Virus record (IMG/VR): IMGVR_UViG_3300034105_001592
Coordinates: 1-34,547 of that record
From: a virus
DNA length: 34,547 nt
Strand: one strand, 5' to 3'
The notes beneath the pieces were generated by a model. It was not told where the DNA came from, ran no database searches, and was given only the letters and a program-made list of their open reading frames with translations. Positions 8,557 through 29,079 of this stretch are shown here, piece after piece (positions within the stretch are counted from its first letter, which is position 1; each line of letters begins with the position of its first letter). A program made the translations under genes and the position numbers.

Positions 8557-8557
8557 A

Positions 8558-9601: not shown

Positions 9602-9610
9602 ATTGTATTA

Positions 9611-10081: not shown

Positions 10082-10084
10082 ATA

Positions 10085-10765: not shown

Positions 10766-10766
10766 T

Positions 10767-11066
10767 TTATAAGATGGTTTTGGTTTTTTTAAAAGTTTTT
10801 AAGTATTCTATCTCAATTTCTTTCCATTTTCCTAATGGGCATGACCCGTTTTCATCCAAATATGTGTTGGGTGTGTATACTTTACCTTTTAATGGACATC
10901 CACATTCTCCACACTTGAGAGACCATTCTTTTTTTTTAAAAATTTCTTTTTTTGATGGACATTCTAAACAAATTAAAAATCTATCGTCTGCTAATTTTTT
11001 TAGTTCATTGGAATGTGTAAGTTTATTATACCAAGCCGTGGCTATTTCTTTAAAATCTAATTTCAT
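10767..11066 (-). CDS. Small six-cysteine zinc-ribbon-like protein
   Basis: The 99 residues have cysteines at 33, 36, 52, 55, 57 and 76, as CLEC, CGECGCPL and SCPLGKW. This suggests a zinc ribbon binding one or two metals. The CPLGKW ending of the metal region is, from memory, recurrent in small proteins of aquatic phages; no function is known to me. The C-terminal tail is lysine-rich and ends KTKTIL, similar in character to the KxxTLI endings of the neighbours but not identical. The stop lies one base before the GTG start of the sulfotransferase gene, so the two are probably coupled. Confidence 0.75.
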   Translation of the reverse strand: MKLDFKEIATAWYNKLTHSNELKKLADDRFLICLECPSKKEIFKKKEWSLKCGECGCPLKGKVYTPNTYLDENGSCPLGKWKEIEIEYLKTFKKTKTIL

Positions 11067-11068
11067 TA

Positions 11069-11599: not shown

Positions 11600-11616
11600 A
11601 ACCTATTATTTTATAA

Positions 11617-11706
11617 CTAACTATTTGCAACTACTATTAAATTACCAATAGTTGTTAAGGTAGTATTTAATGTGTTAATTTCGGTATTTGTTATTATATT
11701 TGCCAT
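11617..11706 (-). CDS. Putative 29-residue peptide, Thr/Asn-rich
   Basis: An ATG at 11704-11706 opens a 29-codon frame ending in TAG at 11617-11619. The product starts MANIITNTEINTLNTT and ends IVVANS; it is rich in Thr, Asn and Ile. It fills most of an otherwise empty gap between the ATP-grasp/Hint-like gene and an oxygenase gene in a block with almost no wasted DNA. The ATG directly follows five tandem TAAAA units, the kind of A-rich leader seen before other starts here. It could be a substrate peptide for the modifying enzymes around it, a leader peptide, or chance. No homology is recognised. Confidence 0.5.
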   Translation of the reverse strand: MANIITNTEINTLNTTLTTIGNLIVVANS

Positions 11707-11735
11707 TTTATTTTATTTTATTTTATTTTATTTTT
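11706..11735 (-). repeat. Tandem TAAAA pentanucleotide repeat ahead of the 29-residue peptide gene
   Basis: On the plus strand TTTTA is repeated perfectly five times (11706-11730), followed by a T run. On the coding strand this reads as repeated TAAAA running straight into ATG. Similar but shorter AAAATAAAATAAAATG occurs before the PhyH-type gene at 21832. In hosts without Shine-Dalgarno initiation, A-rich leaders raise translation, so this may be a translational enhancer. A slippage-prone simple repeat is the alternative. Confidence 0.7.
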
Positions 11736-11744
11736 TACAATAGT

Positions 11745-13235: not shown

Positions 13236-13262
13236 ATTGTTTTACTATTTGTATATAAATAC

Positions 13263-13478
13263 TTATTTTTTATCTTTTAAGCCAAATTTTATCCATTTAT
13301 ACCAAATTCTTTCGTGAAGATAGTATTGGATAGGTTTATATATTAATTCTACCACCCCGAAAGCCGTACCAACCTTGATTGATCCACTTACCCACCATAT
13401 GATTAGGAACCCAATAAGAGTACTTACAATACGATATGAGATGGTTTTAGCGATATGTCGTTTACGTTCTACTATCAT
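13263..13478 (-). CDS. DUF2061 small membrane protein
   Basis: This 71-residue protein matches the DUF2061 pattern: a basic N-terminus (ERKRHIAKTISYRIVST), a hydrophobic segment LIGFLIIWWVSGS (21-33), a second apolar stretch with VVELIYKP, and YYLHERIWYKW near the end. Two membrane helices are likely. Function is unknown; from memory DUF2061 genes often accompany cysC and sulfation genes, as they do here. It overlaps the upstream oxygenase gene by ATGA. A 27-base gap separates it from the ATP-grasp/Hint-like gene. Confidence 0.88.
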   Translation of the reverse strand: MIVERKRHIAKTISYRIVSTLIGFLIIWWVSGSIKVGTAFGVVELIYKPIQYYLHERIWYKWIKFGLKDKK

Positions 13479-14080
13479 AAAAATGTATTAGTATTTTTTA
13501 TATATTTTTTATTTTTATCCAAAATTGTAATGTTGGCGACATACACCACTCGTTTATTTGTTGAGTCTTTATTCAATTCAGGTTTATGTTCTACGTCTGC
13601 GGGAAACATTATTATTTGGTTTTCCACAGGTAAAATGGAAACTTCTTCATTATTTTTTGTTTTAAAGGTTAAGTGTCCATCATTTCCTTTCAAATTATTC
13701 GGTATCTCAACGTAATAACTAATAGTCCATTGAGGTGGTTCTTTAAGAAGGAAGAAATTAGATTGACTTATATGGTTATGATAGCAAGTTTTATTATTTT
13801 TATTATCACTAATATAAACCCAATCGTCAAAAGAAATTAAATAATTTTCATCAAGTTTAAAATGTAACATAACCATTTTTAATACCTCATTTCGTATATC
13901 TGTAATATTTTTTGAAATGATGTGAATTCTTGATTGTTTTCCTGGTGTACTGTCATCTGTCGTATATTTAGAAATATCACAATTATATTCAAAATCTTTT
14001 ACTAACGTTGGGTTATCAATATTTGTAATTGTTGATTTAAAAATTGTAAAATCTTCAGTAAGTTTAAATTCTTCAAACAT
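13475..14080 (-). CDS. 2OG/Fe(II) oxygenase-like protein with His-x-His metal motif
   Basis: The 201-residue protein resembles the putative 2OG-Fe(II) oxygenases described by TIGR02466, with YHNHISQSN (100-108), SYYVEIPNN, the strand GHLTFKTKN, FPADVEHKPE (159-168) and KRVVYVANI (176-184). The metal ligands would be H101 and/or H103, plus H165, with R177 for the cosubstrate. The usual H-x-D is H-x-H here, which also occurs in that family. Its sequence is far from the prolyl-hydroxylase-like paralogs around it. It ends NTNTFL. Activity and substrate unknown. Confidence 0.75.
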   Translation of the reverse strand: MFEEFKLTEDFTIFKSTITNIDNPTLVKDFEYNCDISKYTTDDSTPGKQSRIHIISKNITDIRNEVLKMVMLHFKLDENYLISFDDWVYISDNKNNKTCYHNHISQSNFFLLKEPPQWTISYYVEIPNNLKGNDGHLTFKTKNNEEVSILPVENQIIMFPADVEHKPELNKDSTNKRVVYVANITILDKNKKYIKNTNTFL

Positions 14081-14101
14081 AGTATAATAATGTTTTTTGT
14101 A

Positions 14102-14488
14102 TCATTTGTCATTCATATCTGAATATTCTATAATATCTCCATTTGAGTCAATATACCCGTTTCTTATACTTGTACCACTAATTTTCGCCACATCTTCAGG
14201 TGGTTCGTGGTAAATAACATCATACCCAACACCTCTACCATAATTGATGCTCTCAATATCGGGAATAATGGATATGTTAATTCTATGTGAATTTTCCATA
14301 AAAAACGGTTCTTCCGCTAAATCCATCATTACTTGTTGAGCAGTTTTTGGATTGTTCTCATCTGTCTCCACATTTCTAATGGCCACCCAAACGTCCTTAC
14401 CCTTTTCTAATTGTTGGTTAATTAACCATTCGTGACCCTTGTGCCAATTCTGCCATCTGCCCACATACATTGCATATTTCTTACTCAT
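14102..14488 (-). CDS. HIGH-superfamily nucleotidyltransferase (cytidylyl/adenylyltransferase-like)
   Basis: This 128-residue protein begins with an NMNAT-like Rossmann start, YVGRWQNWHKGHEWLI, holding the HKGH nucleotide-binding motif at 16-19. Its C-terminal half has ISGTSIR (103-109), the second conserved motif of the superfamily. Members transfer AMP or CMP to small phosphates. The same two motifs occur in ATP sulfurylase, and an APS kinase lies nearby, so a role in making APS is conceivable. The protein is far shorter than ATP sulfurylases, and a nucleotide-sugar or NMN role is equally possible. It lies one base after the upstream oxygenase gene. Confidence 0.82.
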   Translation of the reverse strand: MSKKYAMYVGRWQNWHKGHEWLINQQLEKGKDVWVAIRNVETDENNPKTAQQVMMDLAEEPFFMENSHRINISIIPDIESINYGRGVGYDVIYHEPPEDVAKISGTSIRNGYIDSNGDIIEYSDMNDK

Positions 14489-14489
14489 A

Positions 14490-15065
14490 TTATATTAAAT
14501 TTATTTTTTCAATTATGTGTTTTTTTCCAATTGGCATCACAATCGACCATCTTTCACCATTTGTAATTTCTTTTATTTCGTGAAAAATTCTACAATGATA
14601 TGACAATGCGGTACCTATTTGTTTTGAAATTAAAACTTCAGTATTATCATCGTCCCAACACAAATATTCACCACCTTCATACGAATCATTTAGTTGAATA
14701 CCTAAATTAAATCTCCTTGTGTTAAATCCTTTCGTTAAATCTATGTGTTTTGAGAATTCATCCCCAACACTGTATTGATGTAGTGTACAAAATTTTACCT
14801 TATTATCATAATTTATTTTAATATTGTTAACATCACTAAACCATTCCAATAATTTATTAAACATCCACTCCGTCTCTGACGAATTTTCTATAACAAATAC
14901 CCTATATGAGGTGTCACATTTTGTGGCCACCAATTTATTACTGTCTATAAGATTATAAACATCTGTAGTATTAAGATATTTACTTAAATCGGTAGGTTGT
15001 AATTTTACATATGATTTTATTAAATTACATTCTTCTTCATTAAATAATAATTGTTGGTGAATCAT
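14490..15065 (-). CDS. Small 2OG/Fe(II) dioxygenase, prolyl-4-hydroxylase-like
   Basis: This 191-residue oxygenase has H107-I-D109 (SKHIDLT), H162 (IFHEIKE) and R172 (GERWSI), with LNDSYEGGEYLCWDDD in the core. The FNEEECNLIKSYV opening helix is the group signature. Its closest look-alike in the window is the oxygenase at 6293-6793 (both have ETEWMF/ETKWLF and GERxS). It overlaps the APS kinase stop by ATGA and ends IEKINLI. Confidence 0.9.
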   Translation of the reverse strand: MIHQQLLFNEEECNLIKSYVKLQPTDLSKYLNTTDVYNLIDSNKLVATKCDTSYRVFVIENSSETEWMFNKLLEWFSDVNNIKINYDNKVKFCTLHQYSVGDEFSKHIDLTKGFNTRRFNLGIQLNDSYEGGEYLCWDDDNTEVLISKQIGTALSYHCRIFHEIKEITNGERWSIVMPIGKKHIIEKINLI

Positions 15066-15499
15066 ATATTTAATTTTTTTAATATTTCATAGTAAGAATC
15101 TACTTCGGTTTTATCCGTTGTATCCAAATCTATAAAGTTTTCGGTAGGTGGTTCATAGTTCTCAACGTGAAACTGATTTCTACCTCTATCCTCTGTCGTG
15201 TGTACATAAACCTCAATAACGTCTTCTCTATTCTTAAAGTCCTCTCTTTGGTCTTTATATGGTGAAACTAATGACACCAATACCGTAAACCCCTTTTTAT
15301 TCAAAAATTGAGAGATGTCTTGTGCTCTTTCAATATTTTTTCTCCTTCCCACCTCAGAATAGTCCTTATTTTGAAAGATATCCCTCAAATCGTCACCATC
15401 TATAATAATAGTGTTCTCCTTACCAAAATGGGTTAAGAGGTTGTTTACTAATGTAGTTTTACCTGATGCAGGTTGTCCTGTGAACCAATATATTGACAT
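15062..15499 (-). CDS. cysC: Adenylylsulfate (APS) kinase
   Basis: The 145-residue protein has the P-loop GQPASGKT (8-15), the DGDDLRD motif (34-40), GRRKNIERAQDIS (51-63), VSLVSPYKDQRE (75-86) and a YEPP segment (115-118), all features of APS kinase. It phosphorylates adenylyl sulfate to PAPS, the sulfate donor. It is shorter than the usual cellular enzyme (about 200 residues), lacking the N-terminal extension. The sulfotransferase at 10085-10765 is the obvious user. The start is placed at the first ATG, just ahead of the P-loop. Confidence 0.92.
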   Translation of the reverse strand: MSIYWFTGQPASGKTTLVNNLLTHFGKENTIIIDGDDLRDIFQNKDYSEVGRRKNIERAQDISQFLNKKGFTVLVSLVSPYKDQREDFKNREDVIEVYVHTTEDRGRNQFHVENYEPPTENFIDLDTTDKTEVDSYYEILKKLNI

Positions 15500-16456: not shown

Positions 16457-18124
16457 TTAATTTTTATACATAACGTAATTACCCATTACTAATATATCCA
16501 TATCAGTATCAAAGAACGTATCAACAGCATCTTTTGGTGTTAATACCATTGTCTTATCTTTGATATTGAATGAGGTATTTAATAAAATTGGGTAACCACT
16601 TAATTTTTCAAACTCCATTAGTAAATCATGTATAATAGTGTATCTATATACTGTTTGGACTCTAGCACTTCCGTCCACATGAGTAACCGCCGGTAATTTA
16701 TCTTTATATTCTTCCTTCACTTTAACAACTTGATTCATATATGGAACATCGTCTGTCATTTCAAAGAACTGATGTTGTTTCTCTTTTATTACCATTGGTG
16801 CGAATGGTCTAAATCCTTCTCTCTTTTTAATAACCTTATTGATTCTATCTTTCATATCGGGATAAGTTGGGTTAGCTAATATTGATCTGTTACCTAACGC
16901 TCTAGAACCAAATTCAATATGTCCTTGAAACCACCCAACTACCTTACCTTCATATATTTTTTGAGCGATATAAGTTCTTAATTTATTTTCAGATTCATAT
17001 TTTCTAAAGTTATTTGTTCCAATTGCTCGTCTAATATCATCATAATAATACTGAGGACCTAAAAATGGACTTCTTGTAATTTTACTCCTTACTTTACGTT
17101 CTTTCACTAAATAATGAACAACAGCACCGATTGCAGATCCCGCATCAGACGGTGCCGGTGGAATCCAAAGATGAGTAAAGTGTGACTTATCTATAATTTT
17201 ACCATTAGCAGTACCATTATACGCACAACCACCACTTAATGTTAAGTTTGAACTTTTACTTACGTGTCTAATTGATTTGATAATTTCAAATAAAACCTCT
17301 TCGTATCTTAATTGAACCGCAGCCGCCAAGTCCTTATGTGTTTGTTCTAAAGTTTCTTCAGGTAGTCTTTGTGGAACACTTAATAGTTCCGCAAGTTTCT
17401 CATTAAACATGGACTTATCGGTTTTATTCCAACAAAATACGTCCATATTACACTCTAACTTACCTGATTTGAACGATATAAGGTTTCTTATCTCTTTAAT
17501 ATACTTTTGAGGGTCTCCATAGGACGCTAATCCCATTACCTTATACTCACCTTCATTTGGTCTAAACCCTAAATAAGAGGTTAATGCGGAGTAATAGAGA
17601 CCCATTGAATGTGGGTACTTCGCAATCGAACTGTATTTGATACCATTGTAATCCGCAACACCTAACGATACTGTATCAATCTCACCTACACCGTCAACAG
17701 ATAAACAAGTAGATTCCTCAAAGTGAGATGTATAATGTGCATAATACTGATGAGCTTCGTGGTGTGTTGAATAAAATACGGTAGGACAAATTTCCTTTAG
17801 TTTCTTATCAATTTCCTTTACGTTACTACGTATTCTTAAATGAGATTTTAAGGAATATAATGGGTTCTTAAACCATTGAGGTTTAATATTTTCCATTACC
17901 CTTTGATATTTTAATTTAGGGTCCTCGTAATAACAAACCGCCTGTAAGTTCTTAGGTGTAATCTTATATTGTTTGTAGATATATTCCAACGCTTTGGTTG
18001 GGAACGAATCATCGTGTTTAATACCTGTGAACTTTTCTTCTTCACATGCGAATATTAATTGATTATCTCTGAATAAACATACAGACGAATCATGATAAAA
18101 TGCAGATATACCTATTATGTACAT
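16457..18124 (-). CDS. NodU/CmcH-family O-carbamoyltransferase
   Basis: The 555 residues match the full carbamoyltransferase family. IIGISAFYHDSSVCLF begins the N-terminal ASKHA-like domain, with THHEAHQYYAHY for metal/phosphate binding, LSVDGVGE and TLSGGCAYNGTANGKI. The C-terminal domain has GPQYYYDDIRRAI, FGSRALGNRSILANPT and FRPFAPMV. The enzyme uses carbamoyl phosphate and ATP to carbamoylate a hydroxyl, often on a sugar. Length is as expected for the family. Three bases separate it from the TPP-enzyme fusion upstream, so the carbamoyl group probably ends up on the sugar made by this operon. Confidence 0.93.
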   Translation of the reverse strand: MYIIGISAFYHDSSVCLFRDNQLIFACEEEKFTGIKHDDSFPTKALEYIYKQYKITPKNLQAVCYYEDPKLKYQRVMENIKPQWFKNPLYSLKSHLRIRSNVKEIDKKLKEICPTVFYSTHHEAHQYYAHYTSHFEESTCLSVDGVGEIDTVSLGVADYNGIKYSSIAKYPHSMGLYYSALTSYLGFRPNEGEYKVMGLASYGDPQKYIKEIRNLISFKSGKLECNMDVFCWNKTDKSMFNEKLAELLSVPQRLPEETLEQTHKDLAAAVQLRYEEVLFEIIKSIRHVSKSSNLTLSGGCAYNGTANGKIIDKSHFTHLWIPPAPSDAGSAIGAVVHYLVKERKVRSKITRSPFLGPQYYYDDIRRAIGTNNFRKYESENKLRTYIAQKIYEGKVVGWFQGHIEFGSRALGNRSILANPTYPDMKDRINKVIKKREGFRPFAPMVIKEKQHQFFEMTDDVPYMNQVVKVKEEYKDKLPAVTHVDGSARVQTVYRYTIIHDLLMEFEKLSGYPILLNTSFNIKDKTMVLTPKDAVDTFFDTDMDILVMGNYVMYKN

Positions 18125-18127
18125 ATT

Positions 18128-19870
18128 TTAATGTTTCTTGTTAATTAAGTTTTTGAAAAAAACCGTATCTGTTTTATCTTTTGTGATTTCCAAAACTTTT
18201 TCTTTATTATTTTTAAATCTATGCCTTGATTCTTTATAAAATTTAATAACTTCGTCTTTATTTTTATGTAATCTTAAAATTTCATTAAAAATCATTTTAA
18301 ATCTTTTTTTGACATCTTTTTCATCGTCATAACTGTGGTCAATTAAATCGTCAAAAAAATCAAATCCAAAAACACCTCTCATTGTTCGAATATGTTCATG
18401 AGTTGCTGCAATGATTGGAAATTGTGAATAATGAAATGGGATGATTGATTTTTCAGTTATATGTACCACATCTTCAAATTCAAACTGTGATTCCCCCACA
18501 ATATTGATATATGAATTAGAGTGGTGATTCATTTCAAACGTTTTATTCCAATCAAATCCCCACTCACCTATGTCAACATCGTAATCTCTTTCATACTTAC
18601 TTTTTCTAACATCAATATTACCAAAATATTGTATTTCTTCGTTTAAATTTTCAATTTCATCTTCAAATAAAATATTACCCACCATCCAACCGGGTAAAAC
18701 ACCATCAGGTGTTCTAAAACTTTCCATTTGATGTCCTTTCAATAATGACCAATCTGTTTCTTCTAATAAACCATATTTTTTTAACATACATAACATACTA
18801 AATCTGTGAGATTTTAACATTCTGTTATGACACATAAATAAGTTTTCTTTATCTCCTTTAAATTGGTAATCATAACCAAACGTACACATATTTTTACTGA
18901 CTACAAGATGTAATCTATTCGTTGTATGTACATTAATTCCAGTGGTAATACTATTTTTTAATTCTGTTAATTTTTCATTACCATTAATAATATAAAATTG
19001 TTTAGTGTCCAATTTTTCATTTCTAATAGCATAATCCATTACTTCAATTATTTCATTAGTTTCACATTCATGTTCAGTTAGGAAAATAGTATATAAATTT
19101 TTATTTTCTCTCATTAATTGTTTTATTTCTTCCGATAGTGGTAAAATTGGGTTTTCACGATATAATGAAGTTAAATAACTATTAATAACAATTATATGGT
19201 AAAAATTTTCATTTTTACGTAAACTAATTTGATTACGGTCACATATTTCATAATTAGTAACTTCATACCAACCTTCTCCAAAAATATTTTGAATTTGATT
19301 AGTGTTAGAATAATCACTTGATTCGTCACAAATAATATTTAAAACACCATAGTCATTATATTTTTCAGGGTATTCATTTATAATATATACCCCTTTATTG
19401 TTATTGGCGAAATGATAAGCTTCTTTAATTTCTTTTGGTGATTTACAATCAAATATTTTGATTGTTTTGCACATCGATTTAAACTCCTCAATATAATTTG
19501 CTTTATGTTGGTGTCCTGGGTCTAATGGTGTGTCTGAACCCTTACCAACTCTAACTATTATATGTGGTTTTTGTTCTGTCATTAATTCGTATTTGTCGAC
19601 GTGATTAATTAACTGATTAGCTGCCGAAATAATAAAATCCCATCTTGGGTAAAATGTAACTACTTTTTTTCCTAACATTGATAACCCTAATGTCATACCC
19701 ATTTGTGTTTCTTCCATAACAGGTACTTCAATCATCATTTCTTTTGGTACATTTCCTAATGTTGTACTCATTGGATTTCCAGCGTACACAATTTGTTGTC
19801 CAATAAAAACTGTATTTGAATCTTTAGACATTTCTGTCATTATATTTGTAAGTGTTTCTTTATATGTCAT
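18128..19870 (-). CDS. TPP-enzyme beta-type pyrimidine-binding domain fused to a glycosyltransferase-like domain
   Basis: Residues 1-175 are a transketolase/E1-beta-type pyrimidine-binding domain: VFIGQQIVYAGNP, EVPVMEETQMGMTLGLSM with the expected Glu that activates thiamine diphosphate, FYPRWDF and GSDTPLDPGHQHKA. The usual transketolase C-terminal domain is missing. From about 200 to the end it aligns by eye along most of its length with the glycosyltransferase-like protein at 30485-31810: LTEHECE/LCEHES, CHNR, VHITEKS, GFDFFDDLIDHSYD/GFDLFDDLIDHSYD. The partner TPP-binding subunit is encoded immediately upstream. The fusion suggests the sugar is made and then transferred by coupled enzymes. 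Confidence 0.85.
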   Translation of the reverse strand: MTYKETLTNIMTEMSKDSNTVFIGQQIVYAGNPMSTTLGNVPKEMMIEVPVMEETQMGMTLGLSMLGKKVVTFYPRWDFIISAANQLINHVDKYELMTEQKPHIIVRVGKGSDTPLDPGHQHKANYIEEFKSMCKTIKIFDCKSPKEIKEAYHFANNNKGVYIINEYPEKYNDYGVLNIICDESSDYSNTNQIQNIFGEGWYEVTNYEICDRNQISLRKNENFYHIIVINSYLTSLYRENPILPLSEEIKQLMRENKNLYTIFLTEHECETNEIIEVMDYAIRNEKLDTKQFYIINGNEKLTELKNSITTGINVHTTNRLHLVVSKNMCTFGYDYQFKGDKENLFMCHNRMLKSHRFSMLCMLKKYGLLEETDWSLLKGHQMESFRTPDGVLPGWMVGNILFEDEIENLNEEIQYFGNIDVRKSKYERDYDVDIGEWGFDWNKTFEMNHHSNSYINIVGESQFEFEDVVHITEKSIIPFHYSQFPIIAATHEHIRTMRGVFGFDFFDDLIDHSYDDEKDVKKRFKMIFNEILRLHKNKDEVIKFYKESRHRFKNNKEKVLEITKDKTDTVFFKNLINKKH

Positions 19871-19880
19871 ATTGTTTTTT

Positions 19881-20513
19881 TTAAAATGCTACCCATTTAC
19901 CAGTTCCATAATGTGGATATTTTGATTTATAATCATACCAAATAACATCATCAGGTACTTCTCTTTTAATTCCATTCCATGTTGCTTCAGTTGGTGTGTA
20001 CGTAGATACTCCATTGTCTTCTACAACAAAATGTAATGGTAAGTCATAATTTTTAGCGTACTTATAAACTTCATAAAATATTCCACTTTCAAAACTCATA
20101 TCTCCAATGAATACCCAAACTTTTTCATCTGAATTATCTCTCTTTATTCCCATTGCCACACCTAACGCAATTGATAATGTTCCACCAACTATTGCGGATG
20201 AATAAAATTTTTCATCAGTTTTACAAATTGTTATTGATTTACCATCTAAAATTTGTCTCTCTAACCAATTAGGTGTAATGTCTTTCAATAAAGTATGATA
20301 ATGTGATCTCCAAGTTGAAAACACCCAATCTCTTTTATCAATTCTTTTAAAAATTTCAATTAATTGTTCCTCGTTACCGTTTGAAAGATGTACAGGTCCT
20401 CGTATTTTACCTCCTTCCCAATGGGATACAATTAAATCTTCAAAGGCAATTAAATCCTCTTTAGTTTGTGGTACTTCTCTAACCACCGGATATTTTTCTA
20501 AATTCTTTATCAT
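19881..20513 (-). CDS. TPP-binding (E1-alpha-like) subunit of a split thiamine-diphosphate enzyme
   Basis: The 210-residue protein has the thiamine-diphosphate/Mg motif GDMSFESG (137-144) followed 28 residues later by N167, the GDG-x(about 28)-N pattern. GPVHLSNGNEEQ, FSTWRSHYH and GGTLSIALGVAMG resemble the E1-alpha chain of 2-oxo-acid dehydrogenases. It is shorter than those (usually over 300). With the pyrimidine domain encoded next door it would form an alpha2-beta2 type enzyme moving a two-carbon unit. In the avilamycin and aldgamycin pathways such an E1-like pair builds branched-chain sugars, which fits the surrounding sugar genes. It overlaps the RmlC-like gene by ATGA. Confidence 0.85.
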   Translation of the reverse strand: MIKNLEKYPVVREVPQTKEDLIAFEDLIVSHWEGGKIRGPVHLSNGNEEQLIEIFKRIDKRDWVFSTWRSHYHTLLKDITPNWLERQILDGKSITICKTDEKFYSSAIVGGTLSIALGVAMGIKRDNSDEKVWVFIGDMSFESGIFYEVYKYAKNYDLPLHFVVEDNGVSTYTPTEATWNGIKREVPDDVIWYDYKSKYPHYGTGKWVAF

Positions 20514-21064
20514 TTATCTTTCATTTGTAATGTTGGATTATTTGTCGGCCATTCTATATTCCATTGTGTGTCATTCCATTTTGCGACTCCGTGATTAATT
20601 GAATCCACATATTCTCCTTTATAAAAAAGATTATAATGAAAAACACAATCAGTTAACGCATAATGTCCATTAGCAAAACCTGGTGGTATTAACACTTGGT
20701 CTCTATTTTTTTCAGATATTAAATAAGATTCCCACTTACCATACGTTGGTGATTTTTCTCTGACATCTAAAACAATTAAATAAATATCACCAACTAACGC
20801 CTGTACTAATTTCCAAGTTTTATCATCATAATGTAAACCTCTTAAAACATTTTTATATGATTTAGAAAATCTACCATGAATACTAATTTCATTTTTATCG
20901 TAATGAATGTGTCCCATTACAGGATGTTCTTCACTATGGAATGTTGTAAAAATTTCACCTCTAAATTCTCTGAATATTGAAGGTGTGAACACGGGAACTT
21001 CATAACCAAAAACTTTAGATGGTCTTTCTTCAAAATCGCTCCATTTTTTTTCTATTTGTGACAT
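20510..21064 (-). CDS. RmlC-like dTDP-4-dehydrorhamnose 3,5-epimerase family protein
   Basis: The cupin fold of the RmlC family is visible in 184 residues: VLRGLHYDD (73-81, with the catalytic His78), VQALVGDIYLIVLDVREKSPTYGKW (read in pieces from 87), VLIPPGFANGHYAL (124-137) and the C-terminal WNDTQWNIEWP. Such enzymes epimerise C3 and/or C5 of 4-keto-6-deoxy nucleotide sugars. Here the likely substrate pool is GDP-4-keto-6-deoxymannose or a product of the TPP enzyme, not dTDP sugars, because no RmlA/RmlB genes are present. This is the only start with a Shine-Dalgarno-like GGAG upstream, which may be coincidence with the end of the preceding gene. Confidence 0.88.
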   Translation of the reverse strand: MSQIEKKWSDFEERPSKVFGYEVPVFTPSIFREFRGEIFTTFHSEEHPVMGHIHYDKNEISIHGRFSKSYKNVLRGLHYDDKTWKLVQALVGDIYLIVLDVREKSPTYGKWESYLISEKNRDQVLIPPGFANGHYALTDCVFHYNLFYKGEYVDSINHGVAKWNDTQWNIEWPTNNPTLQMKDK

Positions 21065-21067
21065 ATG

Positions 21068-21832
21068 TTATTCTCCCCAAAATTTATTTTTAATTTCATG
21101 AACATCAATTGGTTCTCTTTTCATTAAACCACCTTCTCTCATAGGTGCGGTTTTTGCTTTATATCCAATTACTAATGAATTTCTATTTTTATCACTTTTA
21201 TTTTCGTTTGATCCGTGAACACAATGTGAATGTACAAACACAACATCTCCCGGTTTTGATTCAGTATAAACTAAAGGAAAATTATGTCCTTCAGGCATTT
21301 TACATGGTTTACCTCTTTCATTTTTCCAAAATAAAGGATTTGTTTTGGTTCTTTCTTCGTCAACTTCTATGTCTAAGATTGGTAAAAAATGTGAACTTTC
21401 ATAGACCCATAAACCTCCGTTAGTTTCATTAGAATAATCTAAAGTTACACTGGCGTTCATCGACCTACCCCAACCAGATTGAGAATATATTCCATCTTGG
21501 TGAGCGTCTCTACCTAATTCACCTGATGGTTTAAAATATGCCAAACTTTGTATTCCGACACATTCTTCACCAAATAGTAATTCAACAATTTCTAAAAGTT
21601 TTGGGTGTCCTAAATACTTTAAGATTTTTTCGGATTCTTTTTGTGGATGTGAATACATACCATATTCTCCCCATGTGGTTTCTTTTTCGTTTCTTTCAAT
21701 TCTTAAACGATTCATTTCACTTTTAATTTCCTCAGCCTCTTCTTCTGTAAAGACATTCACAACAACAAAACCTCTATATTTCCAATCGTGTAATATTCTT
21801 GTAATTTCTTTATCGTTAATGTATGTTTTCAT
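21068..21832 (-). CDS. Phytanoyl-CoA dioxygenase (PhyH)-family 2OG/Fe(II) oxygenase
   Basis: The 254-residue protein has RDAHQDGIY (H111-Q-D113), the second iron His in HSHCVHGSN (H206) and R217 (KNRNSLV) for 2-oxoglutarate, with GGLWVYESSH and KPGDVVFVHS as typical PhyH strands. It is a different branch from the small prolyl-hydroxylase-like genes to the left. PhyH members often hydroxylate lipids, natural products or sugars, so it could oxidise a nucleotide sugar here. The ATG is preceded by AAAATAAAATAAA, a TAAAA-type leader like that at 11706. Confidence 0.9.
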   Translation of the reverse strand: MKTYINDKEITRILHDWKYRGFVVVNVFTEEEAEEIKSEMNRLRIERNEKETTWGEYGMYSHPQKESEKILKYLGHPKLLEIVELLFGEECVGIQSLAYFKPSGELGRDAHQDGIYSQSGWGRSMNASVTLDYSNETNGGLWVYESSHFLPILDIEVDEERTKTNPLFWKNERGKPCKMPEGHNFPLVYTESKPGDVVFVHSHCVHGSNENKSDKNRNSLVIGYKAKTAPMREGGLMKREPIDVHEIKNKFWGE

Positions 21833-21843
21833 TTTATTTTATT

Positions 21844-22278
21844 TTACCCTTCATTTATTTCAGGTGTGGTACCATCCCAACTAATTCCCCAATTTTGAAA
21901 TTCCGCAGCTAAACAATCAACCTTATAGTCTTTTCTACCCCCAACAACTTCTTGAATTTTGTTTTTAGCGGTATTTCTAACACCATTTAAACCATGTGTC
22001 AATTCTAAATCGTTACCTTCCTTAATTCCTTTACGATAATTGGACTCATTGTGCCAAATATGTAAATTGGTTTGTGCTAACACAACAATTGCTCTAATTG
22101 TTTGTGCGTCTATCACACCATTGTTTTCACTAAGAATTAAATCGACGTCGTGTTGGATGTCTTTAATTTCCTGTGTATAAACTTCTTTATGTTCCGGTAT
22201 AAACACTTCTTTTAATTGTGATATACTCATTCTGTCAATTAATTCCGCCAATGTTGGCAAGTACTTTCTCTTTTCCAT
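21844..22278 (-). CDS. Conserved hypothetical protein, all-helical (DUF4254-like?)
   Basis: This 144-residue protein is not securely recognised. It is predicted helical, with LPTLAELIDRMSISQLKE at the start, a mid-helix LAQTNLHIWHNESNYRKG and LNGVRNTAKNKIQE, followed by RKDYKVDCLAAEFQNWGISWDGT. The IWHNE...R and N..RN patterns loosely recall DUF4254 and similar small helical proteins encoded inside polysaccharide loci. It sits between the GDP-mannose dehydratase and the PhyH gene with gaps of 3 and 11 bases, so a part in the same sugar pathway is likely. No catalytic motif is visible. Confidence 0.8.
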   Translation of the reverse strand: MEKRKYLPTLAELIDRMSISQLKEVFIPEHKEVYTQEIKDIQHDVDLILSENNGVIDAQTIRAIVVLAQTNLHIWHNESNYRKGIKEGNDLELTHGLNGVRNTAKNKIQEVVGGRKDYKVDCLAAEFQNWGISWDGTTPEINEG

Positions 22279-22281
22279 ATT

Positions 22282-23292
22282 TTATCTGTTTAAAAATTTT
22301 CTTCCGTTTTTTATTCTATCTCTCCAATATTCCAATAAATCATCCATTGTTTCATTAAACTTTATCTGTGGGGTCCAACCTGTATGGTTTTCAAATTTAG
22401 TTGTGTTCGGTACTTGTAGATTCGCATCGATTGGTCTTAACCTACTTTGGTCTATTATCACCTCAATGTTTTTAACTGTGGACTTGTTAATAAGATATTC
22501 CAAGGTATCACTTACTTTACATGTGTGATTACCACCTATATTATAATATTCACCTTTTATTGGGTTCATTGTGACTAACATATAATATGCTCGTACCGCG
22601 TCTCTAACATCAGCATATGTTCTTAATGAATCTAAATTACCTACATATATCTTAGGTTCTTGTAGTCCGTGTTCAATCATTGCAATTTGTTTTGCAAATG
22701 TGGATTCATGAAATACGTCTCCTCTTCTTGGTCCTGTATGTGTAAACATTCTAGTTGTCATTATTGTCATATCATACGCCTCAGCATAATAACGACCGAT
22801 TAAATCTGTTCCAACTTTAGAAATTGCGTACGGTGACGCCGGATGTATACTACATTCCTCATCAATTGGTAGTTTATCCGCCGGTACTCGACCAAATATT
22901 TCACTTGATGCACAAACATGAATTACGGCGTCTTTATATGGTGAAGTTTTTAAAGATTCTAATAAATTTGTGGTACCAATAATGTTAGTTTGTAAAGTCT
23001 CCAAAGGTGAATAAAAACTCGTTTGTGGGTACGATTGTGCACCTAAATGAAATACATAATTTGGTTTTGATATGTTTATGCTATTTGTAATTGAAGCGTA
23101 GTCATTAAGATCACCATAAATTAAGTGTATTCTTTCATTTTTATTGATGGTTTCTAACAAATGTTCAATATTATCCAAAGATTCGTTCCATCTACAAAAA
23201 CCGTAGATTATCCAATCTGTCTTTTCTAAAAGATAATCGACCAAATGAGACCCTACCATTCCACATATACCCGTAATTAATACTTTATTCAT
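22282..23292 (-). CDS. gmd: GDP-mannose 4,6-dehydratase-like SDR enzyme
   Basis: The extended SDR fold starts with the NAD(P) motif TGICGMVGSH (7-16). The catalytic residues are CASSEIFG (S129/S130-E131) and Y155-AIS-K159, and HTGPRRGD follows. The ending RPIDANLQVPNTTKFENHTGW matches the GDP-mannose 4,6-dehydratase subgroup, including the R-P-x-D substrate-binding motif. The product would be GDP-4-keto-6-deoxymannose, the substrate expected by the ColD-like enzyme encoded at 27892-29079. Length (336) fits. A related GDP-sugar reductase or epimerase activity cannot be ruled out from motifs. Confidence 0.85.
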   Translation of the reverse strand: MNKVLITGICGMVGSHLVDYLLEKTDWIIYGFCRWNESLDNIEHLLETINKNERIHLIYGDLNDYASITNSINISKPNYVFHLGAQSYPQTSFYSPLETLQTNIIGTTNLLESLKTSPYKDAVIHVCASSEIFGRVPADKLPIDEECSIHPASPYAISKVGTDLIGRYYAEAYDMTIMTTRMFTHTGPRRGDVFHESTFAKQIAMIEHGLQEPKIYVGNLDSLRTYADVRDAVRAYYMLVTMNPIKGEYYNIGGNHTCKVSDTLEYLINKSTVKNIEVIIDQSRLRPIDANLQVPNTTKFENHTGWTPQIKFNETMDDLLEYWRDRIKNGRKFLNR

Positions 23293-23297
23293 ATTTT

Positions 23298-24311
23298 TTA
23301 AAAATAAAATTTTTTAAATTTATTGTTTTTGATTGCGTTTTCAAATTCATCTTTATACTGAGTATATAATAACGAAAATTCTTGAGATGTAAACTTATTT
23401 TGTTTAATAATTTCAATTGAGGTTAAAGTATTTTTTTCTATTTTTTCTTTAAGTTTTTCATATATATTACTATAATCTTCGTCTTTTATTTTTAATAAAT
23501 TTCCCATAATTCCGTCTATTCTTTCTTCTAAAGACTCTTTTTTGTCAAACTCATAATCAAAAATCTCGTCGTACATCTCAAAACCATATTTTTTTAAATT
23601 ATTATGGTAATCTTTGGTTCCAGCAACTAAAAACAATTGTCCTAATAATATGGGTTTAGCCACCTTTTCCGTAATAAAAAAACATTCATCTGAAAGACAT
23701 AATGTTTCAGTTACTAAATTTATTAAAGGATTACCGTAATTAACCGATAACAAATGTTCATCTGATGTATCAGCACCAAATAATGTAATTTCATCAATTT
23801 TTGTTATTTTTTGTTCCCAACATTTAAAAATATGAGAGTCATAATATGTGTGCCACGAAAAATTACCGTAACTTAATAATTTATTTTCACAAAGTTTATC
23901 AATTGTCAATGATCTATTAGGTCTTGTGTGATGATTTAAACAAATATATAATTTATCATAAATTCTTTTATCTATCTCTTTTTTAACTTTATTATATGTT
24001 TCAAATTGTGTGATATATATTGAATTAAAAAAATAATGAGGAATAAATAAAATTTTTATATTTTTGTATTTTTCATATTTTTTAATTTTAACATCTTGTT
24101 TTTCAATTCCGAATAGAATGTATACTTCAATTTTAGTTTCATTAAGGAATTCTATTATCTCTTTATTTATTTTATTTGGTGACATATCACTTTCACTAAC
24201 CCAGTCCCACACAATAATTTTAGGGTTAAGACTATTAATTTCATTTTTTAAATTTAATAATTCAATTTCACTTTTAATTTCACAAAAACCAATAAAAAAT
24301 ATATTATCCAT
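23298..24311 (-). CDS. Glycosyltransferase-like protein, same family as three others in the window
   Basis: The 337-residue protein shares the C-terminal pattern of the genes at 18128, 30485 and 32968: LYICLNHHTRPNRS in the middle, NLVTETLCLSDECFFITEKVAKPILLG (read in pieces) and KKYGFEMYDEIFDYEFD. The TEK...KP segment followed by GF...D..D recalls GT10-type GT-B enzymes, in which this region binds the nucleotide sugar. The N-terminal half is a Rossmann-like domain. It is the most divergent of the four copies and is very rich in Lys, Ile and Asn. It overlaps the upstream SGNH gene by 8 bases. Activity is inferred only. Confidence 0.72.
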   Translation of the reverse strand: MDNIFFIGFCEIKSEIELLNLKNEINSLNPKIIVWDWVSESDMSPNKINKEIIEFLNETKIEVYILFGIEKQDVKIKKYEKYKNIKILFIPHYFFNSIYITQFETYNKVKKEIDKRIYDKLYICLNHHTRPNRSLTIDKLCENKLLSYGNFSWHTYYDSHIFKCWEQKITKIDEITLFGADTSDEHLLSVNYGNPLINLVTETLCLSDECFFITEKVAKPILLGQLFLVAGTKDYHNNLKKYGFEMYDEIFDYEFDKKESLEERIDGIMGNLLKIKDEDYSNIYEKLKEKIEKNTLTSIEIIKQNKFTSQEFSLLYTQYKDEFENAIKNNKFKKFYF

Positions 24312-25014
24312 TATTAATTAATTTATAAATAAATTCACAAAAATTTTTGTTCATTTTGAAGCTCCAATGAAAATCAGTTATCCCACATTCACCATTTGTT
24401 TCTAAAAAAACATCATTAAAAGATTCGTACAATCCCACATCTTCTTTTACATTATCTTTATTCCTTATGTAATTACTCGTTTGACCAAATTCGTCCCACG
24501 TAAAAATATATTTACCACATTTTGTTAATTTAGATAAACTTTCAATTAATTCTAAAAAATTCAATTCATTTGCGACTGAACTATTTATCATTTCTTGATA
24601 TTTTAAATTTTCTTCGAAATATTTCCAATTATATTTGTTTCCCCAATATTCTAAATGTTGGTATGAGTTATCATACGATGCGGTTCCATAAAATCTATTT
24701 ATTATATTAATTCTTCCGTCTGAAGATTTTAAATATTCATAATTAGTTTTGTGAAACGGTAATCTTGTTCTATTTAATGAAGGAAAACAGACAACTATAA
24801 AATCATCTTCATTTAATTGTGGTAATATTTTAATCCAATTTTCTAAAATGGTCTTGGCGTCCCTACTTGGTTGAGCGTCCAGTACTATTTCAAATTCATT
24901 ATTTAAATGTACTTTTAATTCATCGACCCAAAAACAAAACTTTTCATTAGGTCTAGTTTTTGATTTCTTGTATGATCTACAAAAACTATCTCCAATTATT
25001 ACTACTTTTTTCAT
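24304..25014 (-). CDS. SGNH/GDSL-like hydrolase
   Basis: The 236-residue protein opens with VVIIGDSFCRSY, the GDS block at the N-terminus. DAQPSRDAK stands where the second block is expected, and ITDFHWSFKMN near the C-terminus supplies the Asp/His pair. It is one of five SGNH proteins in the window, none close to another in sequence. The upstream gene overlaps by ATGA. The substrate is probably an acyl group on a sugar, by context only. Confidence 0.72.
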   Translation of the reverse strand: MKKVVIIGDSFCRSYKKSKTRPNEKFCFWVDELKVHLNNEFEIVLDAQPSRDAKTILENWIKILPQLNEDDFIVVCFPSLNRTRLPFHKTNYEYLKSSDGRINIINRFYGTASYDNSYQHLEYWGNKYNWKYFEENLKYQEMINSSVANELNFLELIESLSKLTKCGKYIFTWDEFGQTSNYIRNKDNVKEDVGLYESFNDVFLETNGECGITDFHWSFKMNKNFCEFIYKLINNG

Positions 25015-25994
25015 AGTATTTTATTTATAATTTTATCATAATCAATCTCAGTTTTATTAGTAAAATAACATCTTTTAACTGAGTGTTTTAACCTATCGTC
25101 TATTGATAGGTAATTCTCATCAAACTTTTCCATTTTTGGTGGTAAATTATAGTACTTCCATATAGCCTCTTTAATATACGGTCCTGGATAATGACCTAAA
25201 CCAGAATTAATACCTTCAATGTCATTTTTAAAGGTATCATGTGTTCTTCCCCACAATAAACCACAATTTATTTCAAAATAATCACCACCATTTAAAAATT
25301 CATCGGTGGGTTGACTATCCGCATGATATATGTGATAACATTTAGAGTTACCCATTAAAATATATTTTTTTCTAATCGCAGCACAAGTAAAAGATAATGA
25401 AGCCTCCATTCCACATTTACCATAAACGTCCGATACTGCAACACCGTAAAAATCTTTAATACTTTTATTTATTAAAACCACAACAAAATGACAGAATTGT
25501 TTTATTGGTATTATGTAATCCTTAGTTAAATCTAAAGTTTCTTGATGTGACGAATTTTCATTTAAATTTTCATGTCCGTGATCGTGATCCACATCTAAAT
25601 GTATCATACCATATTCACCACTATTATTCTTTTCAATCATTCTTGGGAACAAGTCCTCAATTTCTGAAAAGTTAATGCCAGCACTCACGTATAAATAACC
25701 ATTATATTCTTCTTTAAAGTTATCAATTGTGGTTTGTATTGTTTTGTTAAATGTAACCTGTAATGGCCATCTATAATCATATTTAATAACTGTGATTTTA
25801 TCTCCAAATGTATTAATTAATTCATCCACATATTTTTGATTATTTAATACCGATGAGACCACAACTCTCACACTACCATACAGATTATGTTTTTCTATAT
25901 GCCAAAATATCGAATTTAAATTATCAATATATTGTGTAGGTATTCTTGGAGTACCAAATGTATTATATACTATTAATAAGTCCTTTTGTACCAT
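25011..25994 (-). CDS. Probable GT-A type glycosyltransferase
   Basis: The 327-residue protein begins with a Rossmann-like strand LLIVYNTFGTP and has VRVVVSSVLNNQKYVDEL and ITVIKYDYRWPLQVTFNKTI, typical of GT2-like starts. MIHLDVDHDHGHEN carries a D-x-D-like, His-rich motif that could bind a metal. CYHIYHADSQP and GLGHYPGPYIKEA follow. The assignment is from general fold features, since no family signature is sharp. The start at 25994 gives a 22-base overlap with the SDR gene upstream. Confidence 0.65.
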   Translation of the reverse strand: MVQKDLLIVYNTFGTPRIPTQYIDNLNSIFWHIEKHNLYGSVRVVVSSVLNNQKYVDELINTFGDKITVIKYDYRWPLQVTFNKTIQTTIDNFKEEYNGYLYVSAGINFSEIEDLFPRMIEKNNSGEYGMIHLDVDHDHGHENLNENSSHQETLDLTKDYIIPIKQFCHFVVVLINKSIKDFYGVAVSDVYGKCGMEASLSFTCAAIRKKYILMGNSKCYHIYHADSQPTDEFLNGGDYFEINCGLLWGRTHDTFKNDIEGINSGLGHYPGPYIKEAIWKYYNLPPKMEKFDENYLSIDDRLKHSVKRCYFTNKTEIDYDKIINKIL

Positions 25995-26926
25995 TCTATT
26001 GTTTCTTTAATGCCCTCTTCAAATGTGTATGTCGGATTAAATCCTAATTCATTTTTTATTCTATCAATACTAACCGCTCTAAATGGAATTGTAGTGGGTT
26101 TTGTGACATCGTATTCTACTTTAGGTGTTTCACCTGTCACTTTTAAAATACTGTCAACAATCTCACCTATTGTGATTCCACCACCATATCCTAAGTTATA
26201 TGGTCTCATTGATTCTCCATTTTCTAAAATTAATAACGCACCTTTAACAACGTCTTTAACATATAAGAAATCTCTTACAACATCAGGTGTTCCCCATATA
26301 ACAAATGGGTCTTCTCCACTTAAATGTCTTTTAATTAAAGCCGGCACAACGTGACAAGTTTTTAAATCAAAATTATCATACGGTCCAAATATCGCGGTAC
26401 ATCTTGCTAAAGCAATTTCTAACCCTGAAAATCTTGAAACATGTTCCATTAACTTCTCTCTATATCTTCTCATCCAACCATAACCATAATATGATTTATA
26501 TGGTTCATCTACCCAAAACTCATCTTCAGTTAATGGTCTGCGAATATCAGGATACCCAGTTGAACTATTTAAATCTAAAAATCTTTTGACTTTATTTTTT
26601 GCACATGCCTCCAATACATTACCAATGATTGTTAATTGATTTAATGATATCTGAACATCTGTTGGTACCGTTGATGGGTGAGCAATACTCCCACCACAAT
26701 GGATTACATAGTCCGCCCCTTGTGTTAATATTAAACAATCATTCAAGTTTGTTAAATCAATGTTTTTAATTACTTTAATTTTATCGTCACTAACTTGAAG
26801 TGGTTTATTATGTGTATGTGTTCTTACGTCTGCACCTCTTTCTACTAATTCCAATAAAAAATGTGATCCAATAAAACCAGAACCTCCGGTTACTACTACT
26901 ATTTTACCTTCTAAAAAATTACTCAT
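25973..26926 (-). CDS. NAD-dependent epimerase/dehydratase-family SDR with Tyr-x-x-x-Arg at the active site
   Basis: The 317-residue extended SDR has VVTGGSGFIGSH (11-22), LNSSTGYP around 119-126 and GPYDNFD. Where the family has Tyr-x-x-x-Lys it shows Y149-GWM-R153, so the lysine appears as Arg. The C-terminal half (WGTPDVVRDFLYVKDV, NLGYGGGITIGEIV) is typical of nucleotide-sugar epimerases and reductases such as GDP-fucose synthase. It forms a tandem pair with the SDR at 26928. One of the two may do the ColC-like epimerisation and reduction of the 3,6-dideoxy intermediate. Confidence 0.85.
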   Translation of the reverse strand: MSNFLEGKIVVVTGGSGFIGSHFLLELVERGADVRTHTHNKPLQVSDDKIKVIKNIDLTNLNDCLILTQGADYVIHCGGSIAHPSTVPTDVQISLNQLTIIGNVLEACAKNKVKRFLDLNSSTGYPDIRRPLTEDEFWVDEPYKSYYGYGWMRRYREKLMEHVSRFSGLEIALARCTAIFGPYDNFDLKTCHVVPALIKRHLSGEDPFVIWGTPDVVRDFLYVKDVVKGALLILENGESMRPYNLGYGGGITIGEIVDSILKVTGETPKVEYDVTKPTTIPFRAVSIDRIKNELGFNPTYTFEEGIKETIEWYKRTY

Positions 26927-26927
26927 A

Positions 26928-27899
26928 TTAATGATTTACAAATGGATTATAACGTTTATCTAAAATATCTTTATTATTTAAAAACCAATTGGTTGTTTTT
27001 TTAATTCCATCATCTAATCCAATTTCAATTTCCCATCCATATGATTTTGCGGTGCTCATATCAAATAATCTTTTCTGGTCTCCATTTGGTTTGTCGGATA
27101 ACCATTTAACTTCTAAAACTTTACCTGAATGTTTAACTACTAAATCAACAACTTCTTTAATTGTATAACCAACACCCGAACCAAGATTTAATGGTTTAGT
27201 TATTTTATTATCAACCGCAAATATCATTCCTTTAGCGACGTCGTCCGCATAAATAAAATCTCTTATTGGTGTTCCGTCTCCCCAAACTTCTAAAATTTCA
27301 TTCTCCTGTGCTTTTCTAATTAACGATGGTATTACCATTGCATTGGCTGGATTAAAATTATCATATGATCCAAATACATTTGCCGGTCTCACTATTGAAA
27401 ATCTGTCAAAATCATATTGTATTTTATATGTTTCAGTTTGTAATTCTCCCATTCTTTTTGCCCAACCCGCATATTTGTCATTTGGTGATGGAAATGTTGA
27501 CCATACACTATCCTCAAAGAAAACATCGGATGGAGAATAAACCCCAACTGAACTAGTGTATAAAAACCAATCTACTTTAGCCTCAAATGAGGCTTGTATC
27601 ATGTTCGTATTAAACTGTAACATTGGAACCATAAAATCAACTGGTTGTTCCTTAGCCATTTGTGGTGATCCTTTAACTCCAGCTAAATGAAACACATAAT
27701 TCATTCCTTTACAAATGTCTAAACAATTGTCAAAAAATCTTAAATCAACCTGTAAGTGTTCAACACCTTCAGGTAAATCTGTCGGGGTTGTTAAATCTGC
27801 CACATATATCTTACATTCTTTATCTATTAATTGGTTAATTAATGACCTACCAATCATTCCACCTCCACCAGTGATTAAAACTTTTTTATTTTTAAACAT
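26928..27899 (-). CDS. NAD-dependent epimerase/dehydratase-family SDR
   Basis: The 323-residue protein starts VLITGGGGMIGRSL (7-20) and has FLYTSSVGVY (112-121), KYAGWAKRMGELQ (142-154), VRPANVFGSYDNFNP, WGDGTPIRDFIYADDV and NLGSGVGYTIKEVV. It is a GDP-fucose synthase or UDP-sugar 4-epimerase-like SDR. K148 is five residues after Y143, so the canonical Tyr-x-x-x-Lys spacing is off by one. It follows the ColD-like gene with an 8-base overlap, making it the best candidate for a ColC-like partner. Confidence 0.87.
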   Translation of the reverse strand: MFKNKKVLITGGGGMIGRSLINQLIDKECKIYVADLTTPTDLPEGVEHLQVDLRFFDNCLDICKGMNYVFHLAGVKGSPQMAKEQPVDFMVPMLQFNTNMIQASFEAKVDWFLYTSSVGVYSPSDVFFEDSVWSTFPSPNDKYAGWAKRMGELQTETYKIQYDFDRFSIVRPANVFGSYDNFNPANAMVIPSLIRKAQENEILEVWGDGTPIRDFIYADDVAKGMIFAVDNKITKPLNLGSGVGYTIKEVVDLVVKHSGKVLEVKWLSDKPNGDQKRLFDMSTAKSYGWEIEIGLDDGIKKTTNWFLNNKDILDKRYNPFVNH

Positions 27900-29079
27900 T
27901 ATTTAACATTTTACATAAATTTATTATTTGTTCGTCATTTAAATCAGTGTGATTACCAATATAAAGTGAATTACTATGTACGTAGTTTACATTTGTTAAT
28001 TCACCAACAACTTTATATTCATATTTTTCAAGATATGGTTGTAATGATTGATTTCCACCACCTGATGTCCCTAACCTATATTCAACACCATTTAAATCTA
28101 ATATATCACAAACACCACTAAAATCATCATTAATTGATAATCTATCGGTATAATTAGGTTTCATAATCAATGGTAACGCAAAATTACTATTGCCTTCCAA
28201 GTCAAATTCAACTATATACTTGTTCTTATCTAAATTGTCTAACCACAATTTAAAATTATGGCGACGTTTTTTGACATTTGAGTCAATTCTATTCATTTGT
28301 TCTATCCCCAATACCGCATTTAATTCTGTACTTCTCATATTAAATCCCGCAACCGCAAAAGTAAATAACGGATTTAAATTTGGGTATTTGTTTTTATATT
28401 CTTCTTGAGTTTCATTTGAAACTTCTCTGGTCATTCCGTGAGATCTAAATAATTTAGATAACTCGTAAATTTTTTCGTCATTCATTGATATCATACCACC
28501 TTCAACGGTTGTTATATGATGTCCAAAATAAAATGAAAATATAGATATATCACCAAATGTTCCAACTTTTTGACCATTGAATGTTGCACCATGAGCTTCA
28601 CAACAATCTTCAATTAATAAAATATTTTTTTCTTTTGAAATTTTAATTATTTCTTCGTTAATCGCATTAAATCCTAAACAATGCACTAAAACAATTGCTT
28701 TTGTTTTATCCGTAATAGCATTTTTAATGTTTTCAGATGTGATAGATAAATTATCCATAGAAACATCAACAAACACCGGAGTCATTCCAAGTTGGGTAAC
28801 AGATGAGATATCCGATACCCACCCTAATGGTGGTACGATAACTTCACCTATACCTAATAATTCTTTAACAATTGCGATTGATATGTAATTTCCTGAAGTG
28901 CCTGAATTAACCATAACTGAACGTTTAGTTCCAAGCCATTTTGACCATATATTTTCAAATTCTATGACTTTCTTACCGTTTGTTAATCTTTTATTTGAAA
29001 GTATAAAATCCGATAAAACCTTTCTATCTGAGATAGTTATATTGTCGTTAATTAATGGCCACTTGTAATCTATATTCAT
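27892..29079 (-). CDS. ColD-like PLP-dependent 3-dehydratase (DegT/DnrJ family)
   Basis: The 395-residue protein has the DegT/DnrJ/EryC1 fold: MVNSGTSGNYISI (56-68), VPPLGWVSDISS, LLIEDCCEAHGA (154-165) and VGTFGDISIFSFYFGHHITTV (read in pieces from 172) before EGG. At 187-188 two histidines stand where aminotransferases have the PLP lysine. The same swap (His188) is known for ColD, GDP-4-keto-6-deoxy-mannose 3-dehydratase of colitose synthesis, and for the CDP-sugar dehydratase E1. This indicates C3 deoxygenation, not transamination. ColD-like is favoured over E1 because there is a GDP-mannose 4,6-dehydratase in the operon, no CDP-glucose genes and no [2Fe-2S] cysteine cluster. Confidence 0.88.
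   Translation of the reverse strand: MNIDYKWPLINDNITISDRKVLSDFILSNKRLTNGKKVIEFENIWSKWLGTKRSVMVNSGTSGNYISIAIVKELLGIGEVIVPPLGWVSDISSVTQLGMTPVFVDVSMDNLSITSENIKNAITDKTKAIVLVHCLGFNAINEEIIKISKEKNILLIEDCCEAHGATFNGQKVGTFGDISIFSFYFGHHITTVEGGMISMNDEKIYELSKLFRSHGMTREVSNETQEEYKNKYPNLNPLFTFAVAGFNMRSTELNAVLGIEQMNRIDSNVKKRRHNFKLWLDNLDKNKYIVEFDLEGNSNFALPLIMKPNYTDRLSINDDFSGVCDILDLNGVEYRLGTSGGGNQSLQPYLEKYEYKVVGELTNVNYVHSNSLYIGNHTDLNDEQIINLCKMLNNV

Follow-up and report, generated by a model that had tools for sequence, protein, structure and literature searches.

A viral gene module predicted to make a GDP-activated, C4-branched 3,6-dideoxyheptose

The window analysed here is a linear IMG/VR virus record of 34,547 bases (IMGVR_UViG_3300034105_001592) from an environmental sample, probably a fragment, in which a run of sugar genes occupies positions 18128-29079. 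On balance, we think that this module makes a guanosine diphosphate (GDP)-activated 3,6-dideoxyheptose with a branch at C4. Each half of such a product is already known, 3,6-dideoxyheptoses from Campylobacter jejuni and sugars with a two-carbon branch such as yersiniose. We tentatively propose further that viruses and bacteria possess a route to an undescribed nine-carbon C4-branched 3,6-dideoxyheptose via a new, minimal two-domain E1-type thiamine diphosphate (ThDP) carboligase, which would be widely distributed among environmental viruses, SAR11 and Omnitrophota. In the open literature searched, which leaves most subscription journals outside, we found no description of a viral GDP-heptose pathway, a ThDP-branched heptose or the short ThDP architecture.

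The sugar genes are all open frames on the minus strand and adjacent genes are spaced by -22 to +11 bases, so that they read as one operon-like run, as described in an initial annotation of this DNA. Pfam assigns the 4,6-dehydratase GmdL (GDP_Man_Dehyd, 244 bits), the dehydratase ColDL (DegT/DnrJ, 244), two short-chain dehydrogenases/reductases (SDRs; Epimerase, 145 each), an RmlC-like cupin (dTDP_sugar_isom, 111), a PhyH-type oxygenase (71) and the ThDP-binding alpha subunit TPPa (E1_dh, 57), bearing out the two SDRs, the RmlC-like epimerase and the PhyH oxygenase of that annotation. The Transket_pyr score in the window, 24 bits, is slightly below the cut-off of 27. The genes, their families, the conserved catalytic residues and the conserved linkage are read directly from the sequence.

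GmdL (22282..23292) had been taken for a GDP-mannose 4,6-dehydratase, an assignment that the sequence comparisons do not support. It scores 165 bits against TIGR01472 (gmd), whose cut-off is 415, and phmmer gives the C. jejuni GDP-heptose 4,6-dehydratase 7us5 as its best solved relative (350 bits, versus 137 for E. coli Gmd, 1db3). In a maximum-likelihood tree, GmdL, 7us5 and the copies of cultured cyanophages and SAR11 share one clade (support 100/99), whereas the GDP-mannose dehydratases (E. coli, Naegleria GMD) form a separate one (100/100). The nearest GmdL proteins from isolates are those of the cultured cyanophages Bellamy and SynMITS9220M01 (52%), in which the gene adjoins HddA-like and HddC-like genes, and 12 of the 33 viral GmdL loci include HldE-like heptose-kinase genes. 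In viral loci that contain the short ThDP enzyme and no GmdL there is an SDR with 6vo6, probably the C. jejuni GDP-heptose C4-dehydrogenase Cj1427, as its best PDB match (353 bits; the next, 87).

The RmlC-like cupin (20510..21064) is a predicted C5 or C3/C5 epimerase of GDP-4-keto-heptose. Its eight top PDB matches, at 130-138 bits, belong with the C. jejuni heptose epimerases, while the best ordinary RmlC, 1dzr, reaches 85 bits. Five of the eight carry GDP-heptose labels (7m14, 8dco, 8db5, 8dcl and 8dak); 7an4, 7ang and 7ani, also among the matches, presumably come from C. jejuni and belong to the same set. With the C. jejuni heptose epimerases as nearest relatives and the catalytic His, Lys, Tyr and Asp kept, the cupin resembles the DdahB/MlghB type; equivalents of H67, K74, N121, H123, Y134 and D173 are retained and Y132 is replaced by Phe (residues as in PMC7949155). 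GmdL, the cupin, the tree, the cyanophage context and the bacterial neighbours described below all favour GDP-heptose over GDP-mannose as the likely starting sugar. ColDL (27892..29079) is a predicted pyridoxal phosphate (PLP)-dependent C3-dehydratase whose Schiff-base Lys is substituted by His (FYFGHHITTVEGG). Its GHH motif is present in all viral relatives and E. coli ColD (2gms, 192 bits) is its best solved match, in agreement with the ColD-like dehydratase with His for Lys proposed initially.

The candidate carboligase consists of TPPa (19881..20513), a short E1-alpha-like subunit of 210 amino acids, and TPPb-GT (18128..19870), in which an E1-beta-like pyrimidine-binding domain (residues 1 to ~170) precedes a glycosyltransferase-like domain of ~400 amino acids (~185-580) resembling other open reading frames (ORFs) of the window. 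Both TPPa and TPPb are E1-like rather than transketolase-like in sequence. Among relatives of TPPa, G137-D138 of the ThDP motif is invariant and N167 almost so. The predicted model of TPPb-GT (predicted local distance difference test score 86) has E1-beta matches in Foldseek at E 1e-8; a Foldseek match extending past the pyrimidine domain had a root-mean-square deviation near 16 and was discarded. No transketolase C-terminal domain was found for TPPb, Pfam giving Transket_pyr only, and stand-alone relatives are 175-193 amino acids long. The pair may therefore be alpha-KADH2-like in action, but by architecture it is not a member of that group. The split E1-alpha/E1-beta-type enzyme of the initial annotation stands as far as the families go, but its beta part has only the pyrimidine domain and its alpha subunit is short. 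The fusion to the glycosyltransferase-like domain is also found in L007, L038 and L039 (L-numbers label the viral loci compared here); elsewhere the pyrimidine domain stands alone. The short alpha family (180-286 bits, ~200-220 amino acids) is set apart by a gap from canonical E1-alpha proteins (at most 115 bits), as measured in 397, 296 and 285 genomes around its SAR11, Acidimicrobiales and Omnitrophota members, respectively.

Viral contigs were scanned with the alpha subunit and with the dehydratase, giving 18 and 33 loci that overlap in part. The gene set is found again in ~30 other viral contigs, some of them near-identical viruses; it is therefore a conserved module and not a chance neighbourhood. 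Cyanophage-like and other large phages are among the relatives. A typical dehydratase locus comprises ColDL, SDR2, SDR1, GmdL, the small protein ORF144, RmlC or a 2-oxoglutarate oxygenase, TPPa and TPPb, often with the carbamoyltransferase CarbT. L038 and L039 share the gene order, the PhyH gene and the TPPb-GT fusion of the window, and L044, L041, L048 and L051 are compact versions. Some ThDP enzyme is present in 30 of the 33 GmdL loci, drawn from four families: short E1, full E1, split transketolase/DXS-like and acetolactate-synthase-like. The short pair is replaced by a longer E1 pair in L037, L042 and L050, by the transketolase/DXS-like pair in L049 and by the acetolactate-synthase-like protein in L052 only; such interchange of unrelated families at a single position speaks for a ThDP reaction being required there. 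L030 and L057, two of the three GmdL loci without a ThDP enzyme, are truncated, which leaves L040 as a true exception. Conversely, either GmdL or the 6vo6-like SDR accompanies the alpha subunit in 41 of 46 phage loci; of the five others, two are cut short by the end of the contig and three represent distant forms. An Acinetobacter phage match (L005) was set aside as an ordinary acetoin dehydrogenase operon. As a separate observation made by eye, L049, L050 and L059 contain ORFs of ~500 amino acids near the ThDP genes that look like B12-binding radical SAM proteins and are possible C-methyltransferases.

In one genome scan, the alpha subunit was found in SAR11, Acidimicrobiales, Omnitrophota, Nanoarchaeota, Desulfobacterales and Prochlorococcus, and 42 bacterial short-family loci were compared with a control set of 27 canonical E1-alpha loci, taken from SAR11 and Omnitrophota. 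HddA-like, heptose-kinase-like genes are present in 35/42 short-family loci versus 0/27 controls (Fisher p 5e-13, relatedness ignored). A gene for making a 4-keto-heptose, under stricter thresholds, is found in 33/42 versus 1/27 (SAR11 11/16, Omnitrophota 21/21, other groups 1/5). DegT proteins with His for Lys are encoded in 24/42 versus 2/27 (p 3e-5), those of the control loci being mostly Lys-type, like aminotransferases. In vitro, the C4-dehydrogenase and the C3-dehydratase together yielded a GDP-3-deoxy-4-keto-heptose (PMC10680097), and Omnitrophota clusters appear to hold a natural pairing of genes of these types. Across viruses, SAR11 and Omnitrophota, a tie between the predicted ThDP step and genes for 4-keto formation and C3-deoxygenation is supported. 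The absence of GmhA from three SAR11 genomes was not used as evidence because these genomes are probably incomplete.

Both SDRs are Fcl-like and belong to the GDP-fucose synthase family. SDR1 (25973..26926), a predicted ketoreductase, has Thr/His at the positions of Fcl Cys109/His179, the same pair as DdahC (PMC7949155), and departs from the YxxxK motif by a three-residue insertion. SDR2 (26928..27899), a predicted second reductase acting on the side chain or at C4, has a GWAKRxGE motif and lacks the canonical Tyr four residues before the Lys, as MlghC likewise lacks it (PMC7949155); the altered motifs of both proteins persist across their relatives. Because neither protein has a complete Cys/His dyad, we do not read them as bifunctional Fcl-type epimerase/reductases.

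In C. jejuni HS:5, GDP-3,6-dideoxyheptose is made by a dehydratase, a C3-dehydratase, a C5-epimerase and a C4-reductase (PMC10440746), and E1-type alpha-KADH2 enzymes such as KbDH add C2 units from pyruvate to keto-deoxysugars or their analogues (PMC12247030). The simplest way to combine the two is to place a C2 branch at the C4 ketone of a GDP-deoxyheptose and then reduce the side chain. Hence, we hypothesize that GmdL and ColDL would convert GDP-heptose to GDP-3,6-dideoxy-4-keto-heptose, ColDL taking off the C3 hydroxyl, and that the cupin would epimerise C5 while the C4 ketone is present. TPPa and the pyrimidine domain of TPPb would then decarboxylate pyruvate and put the two-carbon unit on the C4 ketone, and SDR1 or SDR2 would reduce the ketone of the side chain so formed. 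Decoration of the sugar may fall to PhyH and the carbamoyltransferase, and its transfer to the fused or neighbouring glycosyltransferases. The reactions, their order, the donor, the site of the branch and the stereochemistry are all predictions from sequence. Of the branched GDP-linked 3,6-dideoxyhexose proposed initially, the branched 3,6-dideoxy GDP-sugar is retained on the strength of the ThDP linkage and replacement, whereas the hexose is given up, the dehydratase and epimerase being of heptose type.

The module shares a heptose-type 4,6-dehydratase, a PLP C3-dehydratase, an epimerase and an SDR reductase with C. jejuni HS:5/HS:11 (PMC10440746, PMC10680097), where, in contrast, there is one reductase, no ThDP enzyme and no branch. 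The yersiniose A pathway likewise joins a ThDP enzyme, YerE, to 4-keto-3-deoxy sugar chemistry (PMC12247030), and the acetolactate-synthase-like enzyme in the equivalent place of L052 is a further likeness. However, yersiniose is based on a cytidine diphosphate (CDP)-hexose and YerE is a single-chain enzyme of the decarboxylase family, whereas the window has a split E1-type pair, and thus no YerE-like enzyme, among heptose-type genes. Alpha-KADH2 branching enzymes (e.g. KbDH-alpha/beta, aldgamycin), proposed or shown to add the C2 unit of pyruvate to a keto-deoxysugar or analogue, resemble the window pair in their E1-alpha/E1-beta type and ThDP motif (PMC12247030), but the window family is much shorter (alpha 200-220, beta 175-190 amino acids, without the transketolase C-terminal domain) and the window's beta part is fused to a glycosyltransferase-like domain. 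With the E. coli colitose pathway (Gmd, ColD, ColC) the module has in common a ColD-like His enzyme, a 4,6-dehydratase, an SDR reductase and the GDP linkage; it differs in the heptose-type clade of the dehydratase, the separate cupin epimerase and the ThDP enzyme.

Several observations weigh against a C4-branched heptose. The nearest solved relative of ColDL is a hexose enzyme, the C. jejuni C3-dehydratase lying outside this comparison, and of the residues that contact C7 (PMC7949155) the cupin has His123 while Ile56 is replaced by Ser. No HddA, HddC, GmhA or GmhB genes were seen in the 34.5-kb fragment, whereas hddA, gmhA and hddC are part of the C. jejuni HS:5/HS:11 cluster. The bacterial HddA/HddC-like proteins are far under curated cut-offs. 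The locus counts are phylogenetically non-independent, with 21 Omnitrophota loci of similar type and several near-identical viral ones, and the controls are canonical E1-alpha loci rather than matched polysaccharide loci. Two SDRs, both with odd catalytic motifs, exceed what a simple branching route would need. Finally, L040 has GmdL, ColDL and both SDRs and lacks a ThDP enzyme and an epimerase.

L040 also fits an unbranched GDP-3,6-dideoxyheptose as in C. jejuni HS:5/HS:11, with the ThDP enzyme serving a separate sugar of the same cluster. C. jejuni makes such sugars by the same four steps without a ThDP enzyme (PMC10440746), and viral short-ThDP loci without GmdL and ColDL exist. However, the near-constant ThDP enzyme of the GmdL loci, its replacement by unrelated ThDP families and the linkage of the bacterial ThDP loci to 4-keto-heptose makers and His-type dehydratases make this unlikely. 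The ThDP pair might otherwise be a specialised enzyme of transketolase or DXS type that acts upstream and supplies the heptose pathway with a ketose phosphate. The strong linkage to heptose-kinase-like genes, the transketolase/DXS-like pair in its place in L049, and the distant fused forms of S-SM2 and P-TIM68, which adjoin HldE-like genes and a Zn-dehydrogenase, all agree with this. We nevertheless consider it very unlikely, given the E1-like sequences, a GmhA-like isomerase in only 3/42 bacterial short-family loci, the linkage to C4-keto and C3-deoxygenation genes and the acetolactate-synthase-like replacement in L052. Least probable is the route originally suggested, in which GDP-mannose leads to a colitose-type hexose, whether or not a C2 branch is added, for although GDP-mannose is widespread, ColDL resembles E. 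coli ColD, and C. jejuni heptose epimerases and reductases keep some activity on mannose substrates (PMC7949155), the affinities of GmdL and the cupin, the tree, the cyanophage context and the bacterial neighbours all indicate a heptose.

Further genes lie in the run or next to it. The PhyH-type 2-oxoglutarate oxygenase (21068..21832), a possible sugar hydroxylase, is retained in L038 and L039, while another 2-oxoglutarate oxygenase occupies its place in L025-L036. CarbT (16457..18124, minus strand), a NodU-type O-carbamoyltransferase with both carbamoyltransferase Pfam domains, directly follows TPPb in the window and accompanies the set in many viral loci, so that the carbamoylation suggested initially stays plausible. 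Within the run and likewise on the minus strand, but absent from the initial annotation, are ORF144 and three ORFs at 23298-25994 without a Pfam match: two glycosyltransferase-like (23298-24311 and 25011-25994) and one SGNH-like (24304-25014), weak assignments that draw on resemblance to other ORFs and on visual inspection. ORF144 (21844..22278) is a conserved helical protein of 144 amino acids that travels with the module in viruses (28/33 GmdL loci), with ~60 invariant positions across 16 relatives and a four-helix AF2 model. It gave no Pfam, PDB or fold match and none in the bacterial loci examined, and so appears virus-only.

Elsewhere in the window, at least seven 2-oxoglutarate-oxygenase-like ORFs (6293-15065), a radical-SAM-like ORF (8558-9601), an APS-kinase-like ORF (15062-15499) and a nucleotidyltransferase-like ORF (14102-14488) were noted by eye. 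The ORF at 11745-13235 seems by eye to combine a Hint-like segment with an ATP-grasp-like N-terminal part, though a Pfam search was negative. Nine ORFs in 5493-15065 end in Leu-Ile, perhaps reflecting a recurring gene-junction sequence near TTAATAT.

If the proposed C4-branched 3,6-dideoxyheptose is correct, viruses would carry genes for a nucleotide sugar that ranks among the more elaborate ones known, and two chemistries that have so far been separate, that of 3,6-dideoxyheptoses and that of ThDP-made branched sugars, would be joined. The short ThDP family would then be a new minimal enzyme for C-C bond formation, useful for tertiary alcohols, and would mark unseen heptose glycans of aquatic bacteria and viruses.

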